Shown: positions 28,448 through 52,314 of the stretch, piece by piece
Position numbering within the stretch: position 1 is the stretch's first letter
How the letters are laid out: each line of letters opens with the position of its first letter
Origin: Evansella sp. LMS18
Lineage (GTDB): Bacteria > Bacillota > Bacilli > Bacillales > Salisediminibacteriaceae
Reading direction: 5' to 3'
DNA length: 64,000 nt
Assembly: GCF_024362785.1 (NCBI RefSeq)
Contig: NZ_CP093301.1
Coordinates: forward strand, 3,224,001-3,288,000
The notes under the pieces: generated by a model
Told to the model about the DNA's origin: nothing
What the model saw: the letters and a program-made list of their open reading frames with translations, nothing else
Databases searched by the model: none
Program-made: the position numbers and the translations under genes

Positions 28448-29215
28448 TTAAAATGTTACTTTGTTGTCCGCTTTACGTTTCAGACGGACGCTTTCAGCGG
28501 GCACGGCTTCAACTAATTTTTGACGGCTGAACGCCGTCAAAAATGGATTTTCAGCTTTTCATGCTTTTCCCGCAGGAACGAGCATCTTCTTCACCGCAAA
28601 TGATCGAGTTGTCTCGACGGATATTCTACGGAGTTAAGCTGGCAAAACTTTTTTTGCGACGAGTAATCGCAGGAGCAGGTCACTTTTTGCGACGAGTAAC
28701 CGCAGGAGCAGGTCACTTTTTGCGACGAGTAATCGCAGGAGCAGGTCACTTTTTGCGACGAGTAATCGCAGGAGCAGGTCACTTTTTGCGACGAGTAACC
28801 GCAGGAGCAGGTCACTTTTTGCGACGAGTAACCGCAGGAGCAGGTCACTTTTTGCGACGAGTAACCGCAGGAGCAGGTCACTTTTTGCGACGAGTAATCG
28901 CAGGAGCAGGTCACTTTTTGCGACGAGTAACCGCAGGAGCAGGTCACTTTTTGCGACGAGTAACCGCAGGAGCAGGTCACTTTTTGCGACGAGTAACCGC
29001 AGGAGCAGGTCACTTTTTGCGACGAGTAATCGCAGGAGCAGGTCACTTTTTGCGACGAGTAACCGCAGGAGCAGGTCACTTTTTGCGACGAGTAACCGCA
29101 GGAGCAGGTCACTTTTTGCGACGAGTAACCGCAGGAGCAGGTCACTTTTTGCGACGAGTAACCGCAGGAGCAGAGGAAGGGACAATCGCCGTCTTACACT
29201 GCAATGAAAAGTATG
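28448..29215 (+). repeat. Dispersed element copy A, interrupted by a satellite array
   Basis: The left arm (28448 to about 28650) and right arm (29174 to about 29215) match the copies at 46910-47146 and 53732-53891. It contains a perfect hairpin TTTTTGACGGC/GCCGTCAAAAA around TGAAC (about 28517-28543) and a smaller TCGAG-TTGT-CTCGA hairpin. Between the arms, where copy B has nothing, sit 16 copies of a 33-bp repeat. One base is missing relative to copy B near 28609, so no common reading frame is kept. No transposase gene and no obvious terminal inverted repeats were seen. Confidence 0.8.
28656..29173 (+). repeat. 33-bp tandem satellite, 16 units
   Basis: Units start every 33 bases from 28656 to 29151; the last is truncated at 29173. 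They are identical except for one T/C position (GTAATCGC or GTAACCGC). In order this reads T C T T C C C T C C C T C C C C, so units 4-15 are three copies of a four-unit TCCC block, a 132-bp higher-order repeat. As 33 is divisible by three and the unit is stop-free in several frames, long frames of 183-232 codons cross it on both strands. None has a ribosome site and they are not called as genes. Confidence 0.95.
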
Positions 29216-37047: not shown

Positions 37048-37204
37048 GATGAGGAACTATAAAACTGCCGTATGTATACGGATTGGAGAGTTGCATGAAC
37101 AGTAAGGTAATTTGCATTCTTTAACCTAAGTAGCTCTCAAGAATGATCTTGTTTCCTGTAAGGTAGTTGATTAACTTAGTAAAAGTACCTCAAGAAGGCC
37201 TTGC

Positions 37205-37612
37205 GTTCCCTGAGAGAGGCGTTTCGTTAGTCTGAGGGAACGAAAGAGGCATATTCGTTCCCTGAGAATTGCGTTTCGTTAGTCTGAGGGAACGAAAGAG
37301 GCATATTCGTTCCCTGAGAATTGCGTTTCGTTAGTCTGAGGGAACGAAAGAGGCATATTCGTTCCCAGAGAGATGCGTTTCGTTAGTCTGAGGGAACGAA
37401 AGAGGTATATTCGTTCCCTGAGAGATGCGTTTCGTTAGTCTGAGGGAACGAAAGAGGCATATTCGTTCCCAGAGAGATGCGTTTCGTTAGTCTGAGGGAA
37501 CGAAAGAGGCATATTCGTTCCCTGAGAGATGCGTTTCGTTAGTCTGAGGGAACGAAAGAGTAAGAAACATTCCCAAAGAGATATGCTTTATTAGTCGGGG
37601 ATAAAAAAAGGA
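37205..37612. repeat. 52-bp tandem hairpin array, 7 units plus a degenerate eighth
   Basis: GTTCCC recurs at 37205, 37257, 37309, 37361, 37413, 37465 and 37517, exactly 52 bases apart; a decayed copy follows to about 37612. Each unit has TTCGTTCCCT, a 23-base centre, the inverse AGGGAACGAA (37235 to 37547) and a 9-base linker, so each can form a 10-bp hairpin (the first left arm is imperfect). The centres are almost identical. It lies between the convergent secF and the NERD gene. There are no unique spacers, so it is not a CRISPR array. Confidence 0.95.
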
Positions 37613-37637: not shown

Positions 37638-38555
37638 TTATAAGTAATATGAATTTTTCCCCTTATGGATTAATTGATAGTTGGTTTCTAATACACTCCA
37701 AATGGCTTTCCTCGAATACAAGTAATCACACCAGCGCTCTATGGCCTTCACGGTTAGCACCATATCTGGAAACAGAAGCTTCAAATCTTTAGCTGCCTGG
37801 AGTATACATAATTTATTTTCTTCTGTGTGACCGCAAGCGGAGCATTTTGTGGTGTATTTGCTGATTGCAACCTTAAACGATTGGCACATTCTGCAAGTAA
37901 CGCCTTTTTGCAACTCCTCATATTTGTACGAAGGGAGGCGATCATATGGTGAATCAATTACATGCCTGCTTAACAGGAATTGCGTCAGCTGCTGATGGCT
38001 TCCATTCAATTCAGATGGGGCTTGATTCAGTTTTTTCAACAAATAATTTAACTGTCCCGGGAAAAAAGCAGGCAGATCAAGCGGGGTCTGGTATAAGGTG
38101 AAAAGAGGGTTTGTAAAAACTAGGTAAGGTTCAATTGCCATTTTGATATTCCGTGCATGAAGCAGCGAGCGAAGAAGTGTTTCACACCGCTTCAACTGGT
38201 GAAACGGATTTGTAATTGCCTTGCCTGTCGTTTTTCTGAACCAGTCGCCATTTTTAATGTAATAATCGCCTTCAAAGTTTTTCACTTCAAAAAGGTAAAT
38301 CGTCTTCTGAGAAAGCAGCAAGGTATCGATCTGGAAAGTGGTATTATTTTGCTCTAAGAGGAGATCGCAGAGGATGAGAGAGTTGCTCGTTAAAGTTGCC
38401 AGCAGGGAGTCCAGGTAGCATTCGCCTTCATATCCTTTTAATTTGCTGAAATAATAGTCGTTGGTCTCTTCAGGGAGGAGAAAACGGGAACGCAGGAGTT
38501 TAAGGAGTGCCAGCACAGGAGGTTCGGTACGGAGTTTGATGAAATTTGGCTTCAT
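37638..38555 (-). CDS. NERD domain nuclease-related protein with zinc ribbon
   Basis: 305 residues. Residues about 45-160 match the NERD domain: an ID...LL core and EVKNFEGDYYI, containing the ExK-type catalytic signature of restriction-like nuclease folds. The C-terminal third has a CxxC...CxxC zinc-ribbon (CRMC at about 222, CSAC at about 238) and a helical tail. Substrate and role are unknown; NERD proteins are usually plasmid or DNA-metabolism related. ATG 38555 follows AAAGGGG. It interrupts the usual secDF-to-recJ order and converges on the 52-bp hairpin array. Confidence 0.85.
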   Translation of the reverse strand: MKPNFIKLRTEPPVLALLKLLRSRFLLPEETNDYYFSKLKGYEGECYLDSLLATLTSNSLILCDLLLEQNNTTFQIDTLLLSQKTIYLFEVKNFEGDYYIKNGDWFRKTTGKAITNPFHQLKRCETLLRSLLHARNIKMAIEPYLVFTNPLFTLYQTPLDLPAFFPGQLNYLLKKLNQAPSELNGSHQQLTQFLLSRHVIDSPYDRLPSYKYEELQKGVTCRMCQSFKVAISKYTTKCSACGHTEENKLCILQAAKDLKLLFPDMVLTVKAIERWCDYLYSRKAIWSVLETNYQLIHKGKNSYYL

Positions 38556-46533: not shown

Positions 46534-46554
46534 TATAAAAAATTGAACGTTTCA

Positions 46555-46815
46555 AAACCGGTGAGGGAGCACAGTAGTGAAGGTCCCCCATGCTCAGAGA
46601 GGAAATGCCGCGGCTGAAAGCATTTCTGCATGGCCCTGCACGAATGAACACTCCTTAGGTATCTCTCTGAAAGAAGAGTCGATTAGGAGAAATCGTAGAT
46701 CAGGCGTTAACTGATTAAGAGGAAATACATTTGTGAAGAACCGTATTTCAACTAGGGTGGTACCACGGGAATAAACTCTCGTCCCTGACTTGTTCAGGGA
46801 TGGGAGTTTTTTGTT
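46555..46815 (+). promoter_or_regulatory. T-box riboswitch of hisS-aspS
   Basis: Stem I contains an AGTA segment, an AGAGAG bulge, a distal GAAATGC/GCATTTC helix with a GGCTG loop, and a specifier strand reading GAATGAACACTCC (46642-46654). The T-box sequence AGGGTGGTACCACGG (46754-46768) is followed by a terminator, ACTCTCGTCCCTG with CAGGGATGGGAGT, and a T run to about 46815. Uncharged tRNA should favour the antiterminator. The specifier triplet is ambiguous: AAC (46647-46649) by position, or CAC (His, 46649-46651) by gene function. Confidence 0.93.
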
Positions 46816-48582: not shown

Positions 48583-50367
48583 GTGAGCGAGAGAACACAT
48601 ATATGCGGAGAAGTAACAGAGCAGCTGACAGGAGAGAAAGTCCGCCTGCAAGGCTGGGTAAAAAAACGCCGGGACCTGGGGGAGCTGATTTTCATTGATC
48701 TCAGAGACCGTTCAGGATACGTGCAGATTGTTTTCAATGGAGAGAACAACCAACAGGCCCATGAAACCGCTGAAAAAATCAGAAACGAATATGTAATCGA
48801 AGTCTTTGGGTCAGTAGTTAAGAGAGATGAGGCAAACGTAAATGAAAAAATACCAACCGGCAGAGTGGAAGTGCTGGTAGATGAGGTGTCCATCTTAAAC
48901 GCAGCAAAAGGCTTGCCGTTTAACATAGAAGACAACGTGGAGGTTTCCGAGGATGTCAGGCTGAAATACCGTTACCTGGACCTGCGCCGCCCAAAAATGT
49001 ACGAAACGATGAAGCTGCGCAGCCGTACTACCAAATTTATACGTGACTTCTTAGATAATGAAGAGTTTATGGAAATGGAAACACCAATGCTGACAAAAAG
49101 TACACCAGAAGGAGCGCGTGATTACCTCGTCCCTTCCAGAGTCCATCCAGGGGAGTTTTATGCTCTTCCTCAGTCACCGCAGCTTTTTAAACAGCTTCTG
49201 ATGGTTTCAGGTTTTGAAAGATATTTTCAAATTACTCGTTGTTTCCGTGATGAGGATCTCCGGGCTGACCGCCAGCCTGAATTCACCCAGGTGGATATTG
49301 AGGCTTCTTTCCTTGGAAAAGAGAACTTGCTGGAAATGATGGAAACAATGATGGTTAAGCTGGTGAAGGAGCTGAAAGGCATTGAAGTAAAGGCTCCTTT
49401 CCAGCGTTTAACGTATGATGAAGCAATGAATCGCTTTGGCTCAGACAAACCTGACACAAGGTATGGAATGGAGCTTGTGGACATCTCCGAAACAGTTGAA
49501 GACAGTGGATTTAAAGTCTTTTCGAACACAGTGAAAAATGGCGGAGTGGTCAAAGGCATTTGTGTCAAAGGGGTAGCAGATCAATACTCCAGAAAAGATC
49601 TGGATAACCTTGGTTCCTTTGTTGAAATATACGGGGCAAAAGGACTTGCATGGCTTAAAGTGGAAGAGAACAACAGCCTGAAAGGCCCGATTGCCAAATT
49701 CTTCGACGAAACAGAAGCGGCCGGGCTTTGTGAGGCATTTGAAGCAGAAGCGGGAGATATCCTGTTCTTTGTTGCTGATAAAAAGAAAGTAGCATGGGAT
49801 GCTCTTGGCGCCCTGCGAATTAAATTTGCGAAGGAACTTGATCTTGTTGATCCTGAACAGTTTAACTTCCTTTGGGTTACTGAGTTCCCTCTCCTTTCTT
49901 ATGATGAGGAAGAAGGACGTTATCATGCGGAACACCACCCGTTCACACGTCCTGTGAAGGAAGACCAGGCTAAGCTTCTTGACGCACCTGAAGAAGTCAG
50001 GGCTGAGGCATATGACCTTGTATTAAATGGCTATGAACTTGGTGGTGGGTCCCAGAGAATTTACGAGCGGGAACTTCAGGAACAGATGTTTAAAGCATTA
50101 GGTTTTTCAGAGGAAGAGGCAAAGGACCAGTTTGGCTTCCTTCTTGACGCATTTGAATACGGAACGCCGCCTCATGGTGGTATTGCACTCGGTCTTGACC
50201 GTTTAGTTATGATCCTTGCAGGCAGAAGCAACTTACGGGAAACGATAGCATTTCCTAAGACAGCAAGCGCAAGCTGCCTGCTGACTAATGCCCCTGCAAA
50301 AGTCAGTGAGGCACAGCTGGAAGAGCTGTCCCTGACTATCAAGGAAAAAAGTAAAGATAAAGAATAG
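48583..50367 (+). CDS. aspS: Aspartyl-tRNA synthetase AspS
   Basis: 594 residues (B. subtilis 592). N-terminal OB-fold anticodon domain, class IIb motif 2 ([20 protein letters not shown]), the bacterial GAD insertion (about 290-420) and motif 3 ([16 protein letters not shown]). It charges tRNA-Asp. Whether it also charges tRNA-Asn cannot be read by eye. GTG 48583 follows AAAGGGG. A terminator follows at 50421-50452. Confidence 0.96.
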
Positions 50368-50420: not shown

Positions 50421-50452
50421 ACAGGTCTCTTTATAAAGAGGCCTGTTTTTTT
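50421..50452 (+). terminator. Terminator of hisS-aspS
   Basis: ACAGGTCTCTTT pairs with AAAGAGGCCTGT around two bases, then seven T. Confidence 0.92.
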
Positions 50453-50522
50453 GAACGGCGGCCAGCTTCGCAAGGAGTCTTTGATTAGCCAAAATTTACA
50501 TTTACTAACATAAGGGGGGAAT

Positions 50523-50980
50523 TTGCAGGACAAATCTGACAATCGTGAGGCTAATTTGTCCCGCAAAAATGATTTGCAGGACAAATTTCAGAAAGAAGGA
50601 AAAGATTTGTCCTGCAAAAACAAGTTAATTGTAAGGGTATTCCATTTCAGGTTGTTATTCAGGACAAATGCTTGGTTATCAGGAGGGATTTGTCCAGCAA
50701 ACAGATAATGCAGGACAAATCATGCTGTAGAAAGGCTAATTTGTCCCGCAAAAATGATTTGCAGGACAAATTTCAGAAAGAAGGAAAAGATTTGTCCTGT
50801 AAAACAAGTTAACTGTAAATATATTCTATTTCAGGTCGTTATTCAGGACAAATACTTGGTTATCAGGAAGAATTTGTCCAGCAAACAGATAATGCAGGAC
50901 AAATCTTGCTGTAGAAAGGCTAATTTGTCCCGCAAAAATGATTTGCAGGACAAATTTCAGGGAGAATATAAAATTAGTCC
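50523..50980. repeat. Array of eight hairpins within a 184-bp direct repeat
   Basis: GGACAAAT and its complement ATTTGTCC alternate strictly, 16 half-sites in all. The left sites start at 50528, 50579, 50662, 50713, 50764, 50846, 50897 and 50948. Seven loops are exactly 18 bases; the last, with a decayed right arm, is 17. Arms often extend to GCAGGACAAAT or 14 bp. Hairpin starts are 51 bases apart, or 82-83 at two places. The whole pattern repeats about every 184-185 bases (2.5 copies). No gene is called here; frames of 60-90 codons follow the repeat and lack ribosome sites. Confidence 0.95.
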
Positions 50981-51219
50981 TGCTTTTCATCTCTTTCCAA
51001 CACCATGTAAATATTTATAAGCCCTTATTAAAACAAAGCTGCCTCCCAATTCCTCTGGCTGACAATATACACTGTTCAAAAAATATTCAGTATTTTTTAA
51101 AAATGATGTTTATAATTAATAACACCGGGTATAATACCGTCAAACAAAGAATTATCAGACACTTATTTTAGTAACTTTCAATTAGATAAAAACAACATCC
51201 CATAATCGTTACTTATTTT

Positions 51220-51414
51220 AAGGGTCCTGTAGTGTACGATGTTCATCCAACGTTTTGAGCCAACACTTTTACATTGGGAGCACAGCGTTCCGGCAGGGAG
51301 AGCAGGCCTTTCATTAACATAGTGTGAGGAAGCTTGAATCGGCGGGCATGGCACCCACGTACTCAGGTCCAGGTTCAAAGCCAGGAAACCTGAAACGGCA
51401 CATATGGGATCCTT
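51220..51414 (+). ncRNA. ssrS: 6S RNA
   Basis: About 195 bases. The ends AAGGGTCC and GGATCCTT pair to close a long, interrupted rod. Inside are segments I recognise from Bacillus 6S-1 RNA: TTGAGCCAACA, GGCATGGCACCCAC, and GGTTCAAAGCCAGG followed by AACCTGAAACGGCACAT. In B. subtilis the 6S-1 gene (bsrA) also lies beside aspS. 6S RNA binds sigma-A RNA polymerase as a promoter mimic. CATAAT (51201-51206) is a possible -10. It ends before the bidirectional terminator at 51430-51470. The identification rests on memory of the family and on synteny. Confidence 0.82.
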
Positions 51415-51474: not shown

Positions 51475-52194
51475 TTATTTCGCAATTTTTTCCAGGTTGC
51501 CGTTTTTATCCATTCTGAATTTTGGAGAATGGTGCTCCTCCGGTTCTTCTTCAAGAAGGGCCATCCTTCTTGCACGATTCATAATCTGAATAATGGATTG
51601 ATAGTCTTCTTCAATAATCTGGTGCTCTTCCTGAAGTTTATTTAAGTGTGCTTCAAGATTTTTAACTTTTTCCGTTAGTTCATTATTTTTGAGTTTTAGA
51701 GCTTCATTTTCCTGCTTAAGCAAGCTTTCCTGATATCCGTTGCCGCTCATTTTCTGCAGGAATCTGATTACATCTTTTAATGTAATCTCTTTTTCCTCTG
51801 TCACAGCAGCAGGAGGAGGAGTTACAGATGCAACGGTAGGAGTTACAGATGCAACGGTAGGAGTTACAGATGCACTCTCCATGGCTTCGGCTGGTTTGAA
51901 TAACTGAGGCTCGGGCTGTTGTGGAGCTGAATATGCTGCCACTGGCTTCGACTGGTATGCCAGCTGGCGTTTTCTGTCTTTTCGATGCTTTTTTGCTAGT
52001 TTGATTGCATCGTCATACTTATCTCTTACAACTGCATTCCATCGGAAGCCGCATGCTGCTGAAGTGCGGTTCAGAGCATCTCCCACCTCGTCAAATGCTT
52101 TTAATTGAGTACTGCCTTCACGAATATGTCGAAGCACTGTTTCTGCCAATAATAGATCATCTTCTTCTGACCATGCGTCCTGTCTGACTTTCAT
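51475..52194 (-). CDS. RsfA family prespore transcription regulator
   Basis: 239 residues. Residues 1-60 form a Myb/SANT-like DNA-binding domain (RQDAWSEEDDLLLAETVLRHIREG and NRTSAACGFRWNAVVR) typical of RsfA/YlbO proteins, which tune sigma-F/G genes in the forespore. A linker with three tandem copies of a 21-bp repeat (peptide SVTPTVA, DNA near 51811-51875) is followed by a C-terminal coiled coil (about 165-215). ATG 52194 follows AAAGGA; longer upstream frames lack a signal. In B. subtilis yrvM occupies this position, so the locus differs. Confidence 0.85.
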   Translation of the reverse strand: MKVRQDAWSEEDDLLLAETVLRHIREGSTQLKAFDEVGDALNRTSAACGFRWNAVVRDKYDDAIKLAKKHRKDRKRQLAYQSKPVAAYSAPQQPEPQLFKPAEAMESASVTPTVASVTPTVASVTPPPAAVTEEKEITLKDVIRFLQKMSGNGYQESLLKQENEALKLKNNELTEKVKNLEAHLNKLQEEHQIIEEDYQSIIQIMNRARRMALLEEEPEEHHSPKFRMDKNGNLEKIAK

Positions 52195-52314
52195 AATGTC
52201 CAATCCTTTCTTATTCATAGACTTTGCTAAAAATGAATTTACTAATAAGATGGACATTATGTTTAAAAAATATACCATTCTACTGGAAACTTCAGAGTTT
52301 TGCTCAGAATCTGT

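Follow-up and report, generated by a model that had tools for sequence, protein, structure and literature searches.

Dispersed Arrays of Alternating Inverted Sites in Evansella: Conserved Sites and Spacing that Suggest a Sequence-Specific DNA-Binding Protein

Introduction

The gap between aspS and the 6S RNA gene of Evansella sp. LMS18 raises a simple question: what keeps a row of short sites, each followed by its own complement, at such regular distances from one another? An earlier note on this DNA, made from the letters of the sequence, had offered a multi-site protein-binding array, a structured RNA, or a terminator or insulator before 6S RNA, and had added that no known element with this arrangement came to mind. 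The latter remark was too strong, as the BIMEs of enterobacteria have the same general layout: they are regularly spaced elements of alternating orientation, present in more than 100 copies per genome (PMC2817692), and are bound by several proteins including gyrase (PMC2817692, PMC3733652). Here, we follow the array from the window, that is, the whole 64,000-nucleotide stretch that was analysed (contig NZ_CP093301.1, positions 3,224,001 to 3,288,000), into the complete genome (4.90 Mb, one contig) and into those of related bacteria.

The Array between aspS and 6S RNA

Direct reading and a script agree on 16 half-sites (GGACAAAT or its complement ATTTGTCC) at 50528-50980, which alternate strictly, confirming the alternation without exception that the earlier note had described; 15 are perfect, and the last one, ATTAGTCC, carries one mismatch. 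The loop and linker lengths given there are all correct as well (loops of 18 bases seven times and of 17 once; linkers of 17 five times, of 49 once and of 48 once), the hairpin-to-hairpin period of 51 bases holds inside each group, and the perfect arms of up to 14 bp correspond to one arm pair, 50573-50586 / 50605-50618. What had been overlooked is that the array is a tandem repeat with a unit of 184-185 bp, composed of three inverted pairs 51 bp apart plus one long linker, so that two hairpins come first and two full triplets follow (table 1). The long linkers of the family are AT-rich (73% AT in 27 linkers vs. 58% in the array flanks).

Table 1. Coordinates of the Array and of Neighbouring Features in the Window
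Feature	Position	Strand	Match
T-box leader	46552..46789	+	RF00230, 115.3 bits
aspS, aspartate--tRNA ligase, flanking gene	48583..50367	+	NF001750, TIGR00459
Intrinsic terminator of aspS, upstream of the array and separate	50421..50454	+	
Whole array, 16 alternating half-sites, units of 184-185 bp	50524..50988	.	
Inverted site pair 1, loop 18	50528..50561	.	
Inverted site pair 2, loop 18, perfect arms up to 14 bp	50579..50612	.	
Long linker between groups, 49 bp	50613..50661	.	
Inverted site pair 3, opens first full triplet, loop 18	50662..50695	.	
Inverted site pair 4, loop 18	50713..50746	.	
Inverted site pair 5, loop 18	50764..50797	.	
Long linker, 48 bp	50798..50845	.	
Inverted site pair 6, opens second triplet, loop 18	50846..50879	.	
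Inverted site pair 7, loop 18	50897..50930	.	
Inverted site pair 8, loop 17, last half-site ATTAGTCC with one mismatch	50948..50980	.	
6S RNA, flanking	51221..51414	+	RF00013, 81.1 bits
RsfA-family regulator gene, flanking, convergent with aspS	51475..52278	-	TIGR02894

Elsewhere in the window, a second hairpin array stands behind a secF-like gene (37204-37560; 6.9 copies of 52 bp, arms CGTTCCCTGAGA / TCTGAGGGAACG), and a CTTGCGTTxC-like word recurs in further arrays of 51-52 bp (L132:2669, L140:17391). The protein encoded at 37641-38555 (-) matches the anti-phage protein kinase family MAD6 weakly (32.5 bits, cut-off 460). A 33-bp repeat (GCGACGAGTAACCGCAGGAGCAGG...) occupies 28651-29173 with 15.8 copies, 98% identical, and has short relatives at L131:3256 and L131:8328.

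A Family of Dispersed Copies

The genome of LMS18 contains 120 perfect GGACAAAT-N17-19-ATTTGTCC pairs, 116 of which fall into 21 mapped arrays (20 fetched places and the window); one pair each lies at two more places, L197 and L201, and two have no mapped place. The same pattern read backward has no match in this genome, against 120-121 for the true one, and alternating inverted sites were absent from block-shuffled DNA in a sequence-blind scan (one shuffle per stretch); chance is thus excluded for the array. The larger arrays obey a common grammar, with sites 26, 25, 26, 25 and 26 bp apart and then 57, giving 185 bp per unit, from which there are few departures (24 or 26 instead of 25, 56 instead of 57, lost sites), while four small arrays (L056, L057, L059, and L063) display part of it only.

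Beyond LMS18 the distribution is narrow. Among 100 genomes searched, LMS18 included, pairs occurred in three: LMS18 itself (120), E. clarkii (G003; 164), and G006 (1); seven of the nine Evansella genomes have zero or one copy of the pair motif. A scan of genome contigs yielded 32 stretches with arrays, 27 of them from E. clarkii and one each from Neobacillus niacini PL-B1, N. niacini NBRC 15566, Neobacillus sp. DY30, Macrococcus equipercicus, and a Bacillus MAG, with 26, 33, 24, 2, and 6 pairs, respectively (loops of 16-20 allowed). The arrays inspected in Neobacillus, the Bacillus MAG, and Macrococcus use the GGACAAAT half-site with a period of 51-53 or double. The search for site pairs in the full genome and in related ones, which the earlier note had proposed, therefore led to 21 mapped loci in LMS18 and to numerous ones in E. 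clarkii, and the array is not confined to one locus. Arrays of the GGACAAAT type were undescribed among the literature matches listed for the sequence string, the repeat size, and similar queries. In a scan of viral contigs, seven phage contigs (L202-L208) were found to share a cluster of GGGACAAAT words, which in the three with listed ORFs lies between a RepA-type ATPase-like gene (by ORF reading) and the next gene; these words stand at other distances, and we regard the clusters as unrelated and reject a phage origin.

An array or a pair occupies the syntenic place in E. clarkii for 18 of the 21 arrays (L056 and L059 being outside the comparison), synteny resting on flank matches for 17 of them (typically ~92% identity, range 72-97%) and on the aspS neighbourhood for the window. 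At the aspS-6S place E. clarkii has one pair, of which pair 8 is probably the counterpart; the other seven Evansella genomes lack the GGACAAAT motif downstream of aspS, and one congener (G007) has an unrelated 52-bp tandem array in the same gap (L105:10439-10776; also L082). Conversely, two arrays with 22 and 20 half-sites in E. clarkii are represented by 3 and 2 perfect half-sites in LMS18, and L070 is absent from its place in E. clarkii, where gain and loss are both possible. As regards the filled and empty sites that a MITE-like mobile element would leave between close relatives, the four places that were compared singly comprise three with a contracted array in the other species and one without an array. 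Judging from these comparisons, arrays expand, contract, and are sometimes lost or gained. Such strong variation in copy number, together with the absence of L070, implies that no given place requires a large array.

Conservation of Sites and Spacing

When orthologous hairpins of LMS18 and E. clarkii were paired, with the arms masked during the choice of partners, 101 of 136 found a partner, and 93 were counted after removal of eight repeats of the same pair (the window locus is outside this set). Differences affect 48 of 1488 arm positions (3.2%) and 234 of 1674 loop positions (14.0%), against 12.8-16.3% in the outer flanks. In 16 of 17 loci the arms have diverged less than the loops; L072, where they have not, contributes a single hairpin, probably a misaligned one. 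The constancy of loop length is more striking still. With loops of 10-30 bases allowed, the LMS18 genome has 121 pairs, 120 of them with loops of 17-19, and between neighbouring perfect sites, overlapping words omitted (three in LMS18, two in E. clarkii), the loop is 18 in 112/113 cases in LMS18 and in 155/157 in E. clarkii, the latter figure coming from loci collected by a pattern that required one 18-base loop. Short linkers measure 17 in 67/71 and 105/108 cases, and long linkers 49 in 24/27 and 25/26, in LMS18 and E. clarkii, respectively. Loops of different loci are 38% identical when they fill the same slot of the unit and 30% when they fill different slots; they share a common ancestor and yet are nearly randomized in sequence, with their length hardly changed.

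Genomic Placement and Polarity

The surroundings of the arrays were classified from ORF calls, from which ORFs overlapping an array by more than 15 bases had been discarded beforehand. Seven arrays lie between convergent genes, 12 between co-oriented ones, and two (L056, L074) were labelled divergent, a label resting on small ORFs without a Pfam family. No ORF above 162 aa is overlapped by 20 of the 21 arrays, while the remaining one, L061, extends with its first sites into the far start of a 440-aa ORF, so that, as judged from ORFs alone, the arrays are probably extragenic. A Pfam match was obtained for 27 of 30 proteins adjoining arrays, with no common theme (phosphoglucose isomerase, SHMT, catalase, ProRS, UvrC, and fumarase are among the families, and STAS and MFS occur twice each); one of the three neighbours without Pfam match is the RsfA-type regulator, and none of the 30 proteins scanned is a partition protein. 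Neither are half-sites scattered over the genome, since 399 kb without arrays contain 13 of them vs. 24 of the backward word. Sites that are not scattered and neighbouring genes that share no theme argue against the operator of a regulon, which we reject.

The triplets are polar, and their polarity in most loci follows the replichore. The best-fit orientation agrees with the sign of the GC skew in 16 of the 17 LMS18 loci that have a full triplet (four of the 21 have none), the exception being L056, which is degenerate and weak; in E. clarkii it does so in 19/19 (eight of 27 loci have no full triplet), many of these loci being orthologous to those of LMS18 and therefore not independent. Shuffling within the loops of LMS18 rejects mere base composition as the cause. 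Scored by leave-one-out with correction for composition, 14 of 17 loci come out positive when all triplets are used (L056, L067, and L073 are slightly negative) and 16 of 17 when each locus contributes one triplet; in the latter form, shuffles reach at most 15 of 17, and the score difference averages 14.95 vs. a maximum of 5.69 in 100 shuffles. By GC skew, all seven convergent arrays follow the replichore, although L067 is without support once composition is corrected for. L068 is aligned with the replichore contrary to the direction of its flanking genes, in a stretch whose own skew is weak (0.016). Judging from skew, the LMS18 chromosome would have its origin around 2 Mb and its terminus around 4.4 Mb.

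Pairing, Drift and Transposition as Explanations

The earlier note had held that the inverted symmetry itself looks maintained. As a statement on pairing, this finds no support in the arms: in 284 distinct hairpins of LMS18 and E. clarkii with at most three mismatches in all, 66 of which have an imperfect arm, the compensatory changes that had been suggested as a check are all but missing, as only 1 of 79 changed pairs stays Watson-Crick and 14 become G-U. Together with conserved sites and distances, these uncompensated changes indicate that site sequence and spacing, not pairing, are what is conserved; the symmetry arises because one conserved half-site is set in both orientations at fixed spacing. 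Hairpins acting in RNA as terminator, insulator, or stabilizer behind aspS and before 6S RNA are for this reason very improbable, even though the array sits behind a gene end and its strand folds far better than shuffles (z = -9.17). In the predicted fold, pair 8 forms and the remaining arms mostly pair outside their own hairpin, which further weakens a structured RNA, and we reject RNA structure as the role of the arrays on the compensation and folding tests. A scan of the whole window against Rfam at gathering thresholds returned the T-box and 6S RNA only, with no match in the array. An intrinsic terminator is rejected likewise: a strict scan along the strand of the neighbouring gene detected no hairpin with a T-run behind it in any of 19 arrays (L056 and L074 being outside the scan), whereas in nine of the 19 places, that of the window included, it did detect a separate terminator, lying between the gene and the array (table 1). 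Nor does a fixed loop of 18 bases with a linker of 17 have an obvious RNA role, and the flanking genes have no theme in common. Functionless, satellite-like DNA, with units spread by slippage or unequal recombination and kept similar by gene conversion, is only a little less improbable. Tandem units within a locus are indeed 78-96% alike (Tandem Repeats Finder), and copy number changes between species; still, across loci and species 8-bp blocks at fixed intervals remain near-identical while the bases between them drift, and neither drift nor conversion of whole units would spare these blocks only, or fix the length of the loops.

REP/REPIN-type repeats, dispersed by a RAYT that copies hairpin DNA via single strands at the replication fork, would read the polarity as a trace of lagging-strand insertion and the conserved site as one of transposase recognition. 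Alternation and more than 100 copies match REPs and BIMEs as described in PMC2817692, the arrays follow the replichore, the triplets share ancestry, and L070 is absent at its E. clarkii place. The LMS18 genome moreover encodes four Y1 transposases, two of which were tested and resemble REP_Tyr_transpos, below its cut-off, and a different array of 101 bp stands directly behind one RAYT. Against this, Y1_Tnp matches occur in all nine Evansella genomes and the GGACAAAT family in number in two, while Macrococcus has two pairs and no Y1_Tnp match. In 40 RAYT neighbourhoods (1.5 kb on each side where available), drawn from 55 matches and including all four of LMS18 and three of four of E. clarkii, there is no GGACAAAT array, and four contain one isolated half-site. 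The two REP super-families set out in PMC3733652 are marked by terminal GTAG and CGTC tags, dRS3 being classed among the CGTC-1 repeats; both tags are absent from the half-site and from the oriented consensus. With 18 of 21 arrays having a counterpart in place, there is little sign of recent movement, and movement in itself leaves near-exact spacing with free loops unexplained. A RAYT link is thus rejected as the simplest account of the family, and as a whole this explanation strikes us as unlikely, if less so than the two before it.

Two RAYT genes do have arrays of other kinds beside them. In LMS18 (L022, about 2084-2714), the 101-bp array consists of nested palindromes and probably represents a true array of the REP type, its transposase being encoded in the same genome; in G007, 24 alternating AACCCGGG sites with a period of 91 bp stand beside a RAYT gene (L165:2257-3284).

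Arrays with Other Half-Sites

A scan blind to sequence looked for 8-mers of any kind that alternate with their complements at a regular period of 20-160 bp, and covered 463 kb of LMS18, 400 kb each of G007, G002, and E. clarkii, and 200 kb of Neobacillus G101. It returned 17 arrays and none in block-shuffled DNA; 12 remain once the window array is set aside along with four GGACAAATC arrays from stretches that had been selected because they contain them. Nine of the 12 have periods of 51-53 bp or a multiple (52, 52, 53, 102, 153, 52, 156, 52, and 104), period classes that span roughly a tenth of the allowed range, and three do not (101, borderline; 86; and 129, coding-like by eye). The arms differ from array to array (TTCCCTGAGA, CTTGCACC, ACTCTGTCCGA, TGATCAGGTATGA in two arrays, GGACAGTT, TGTCGTTA, TTTCGCGT, and TGACCGTA), so that across families geometry appears steadier than sequence, with few arrays behind this observation. 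In a companion scan of the same type, two rows of G007 belong to one array. Tandem Repeats Finder also reports arrays of 20-21, 33, 101, 213, and 227 bp in LMS18 and G007. In those of 20-21 bp, a conserved word of 9-10 bp (TCGCAACAAG, CAACGAAAT, and the like) recurs at a distance near two helical turns with variable bases between (L141:14325-14562, L136:632-795, L137:14751-14865, and L129:1601-1692).

Discussion

Of the answers offered for this locus, the multi-site protein-binding array is the one favoured by the evidence, whereas the structured RNA is weakened and the terminator found no support. Conserved short sites at near-invariant distances, free of any constraint on pairing, are the trace expected of a phased, sequence-specific DNA-binding protein, and we hold it probable, though far from settled, that this dispersed intergenic family binds such a putative protein in a phased assembly, its binding being inferred from sequence. 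The recognized half-site would be GGACAAAT, extended on the linker side to about TTTGCWGGACAAAT. Half-sites would alternate between strands, their centres spaced by 26 and 25 bp in turn, in groups of three pairs that repeat every 185 bp, and, if a helical repeat of 10.3 bp per turn is assumed, an assumption on which the fit depends, sites of the same orientation would be separated by nearly whole turns (51, 83, and 185 bp, or 4.95, 8.06, and 17.96 turns) and opposite sites by nearly half turns (25, 26, and 57 bp, or 2.43, 2.52, and 5.53). One protein could thereby assemble into a regular phased complex along the DNA. What this complex might do is a more tentative matter: by analogy with the enterobacterial BIMEs, we conjecture that it may act behind genes as a site of chromosome architecture or supercoil handling. 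The polarity along replichores could be a mark of dispersal at forks, as in single-strand transposition (PMC6006769).

The resemblance to BIMEs and REPs extends to regular spacing, alternating orientation, more than 100 copies per genome (here 120 perfect pairs), and arrays of varying copy number behind genes. Yet, the unit here is an 8-bp half-site (~14 bp when extended) rather than a palindrome of 20-40 bp, it has no GTAG/CGTC consensus tag and no RAYT beside any array examined, and it is kept at a near-invariant 18/17/49 spacing with free sequence between and a polarity tied to the replichore. Like REPINs, the arrays set two inverted elements around a spacer in genomes that also encode Y1 transposases, but adjacency to a RAYT is nil in the 40 neighbourhoods and one host is without a Y1_Tnp match. 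In Neisseria, the NIME (dRS3, RS) are intergenic clusters in which conserved short inverted pairs alternate with variable sequence, dRS3 being a 20-bp palindrome with an 8-bp core. The arrays share with them this alternation and the clustering between genes, and differ in site, loop length, and period. Superficially, the 33-bp linker palindromes and 18-bp loops even recall the regular repeats and short unlike stretches of a CRISPR. A CRISPR has direct repeats and unique spacers; here, in contrast, orientation alternates, the 18-bp stretches come back with every 185-bp unit, and the genome carries about 21 short, dispersed arrays. Plasmid centromere and iteron arrays (parC, tubC) group short protein-binding sites at helical spacing and leave a longer gap from one group to the next. 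This arrangement is also seen here, but at about 21 chromosomal loci and with no partition gene among the 30 neighbours scanned.

Going further, it is possible, although we consider it rather doubtful and somewhat more so than a BIME-like role, that Bacillaceae carry a general class of chromosomal arrays of phased inverted sites, in which the period (51-53 bp or a multiple) and the alternation are fixed and the half-site is specific to each family. It would be as if related proteins of differing specificity, or one machine that reads structure, built the same nucleoprotein lattice at many gene ends, with a polarity set by replication, the polarity result covering the GGACAAAT family.

Overall, sites and spacing held amid drifting sequence point to a specific DNA-binding protein that may act on chromosome structure, and the polarity along replichores ties the arrays to replication. 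The array DNA itself would be a direct bait for this putative protein, a single fragment with about 100 natural copies. Should the geometry of 51-53 bp hold across unlike half-sites, the arrays would form a class of architectural DNA on a par with BIMEs; and, if true, the general class of phased arrays would correspond, in bacteria, to satellite or centromere-like DNA.
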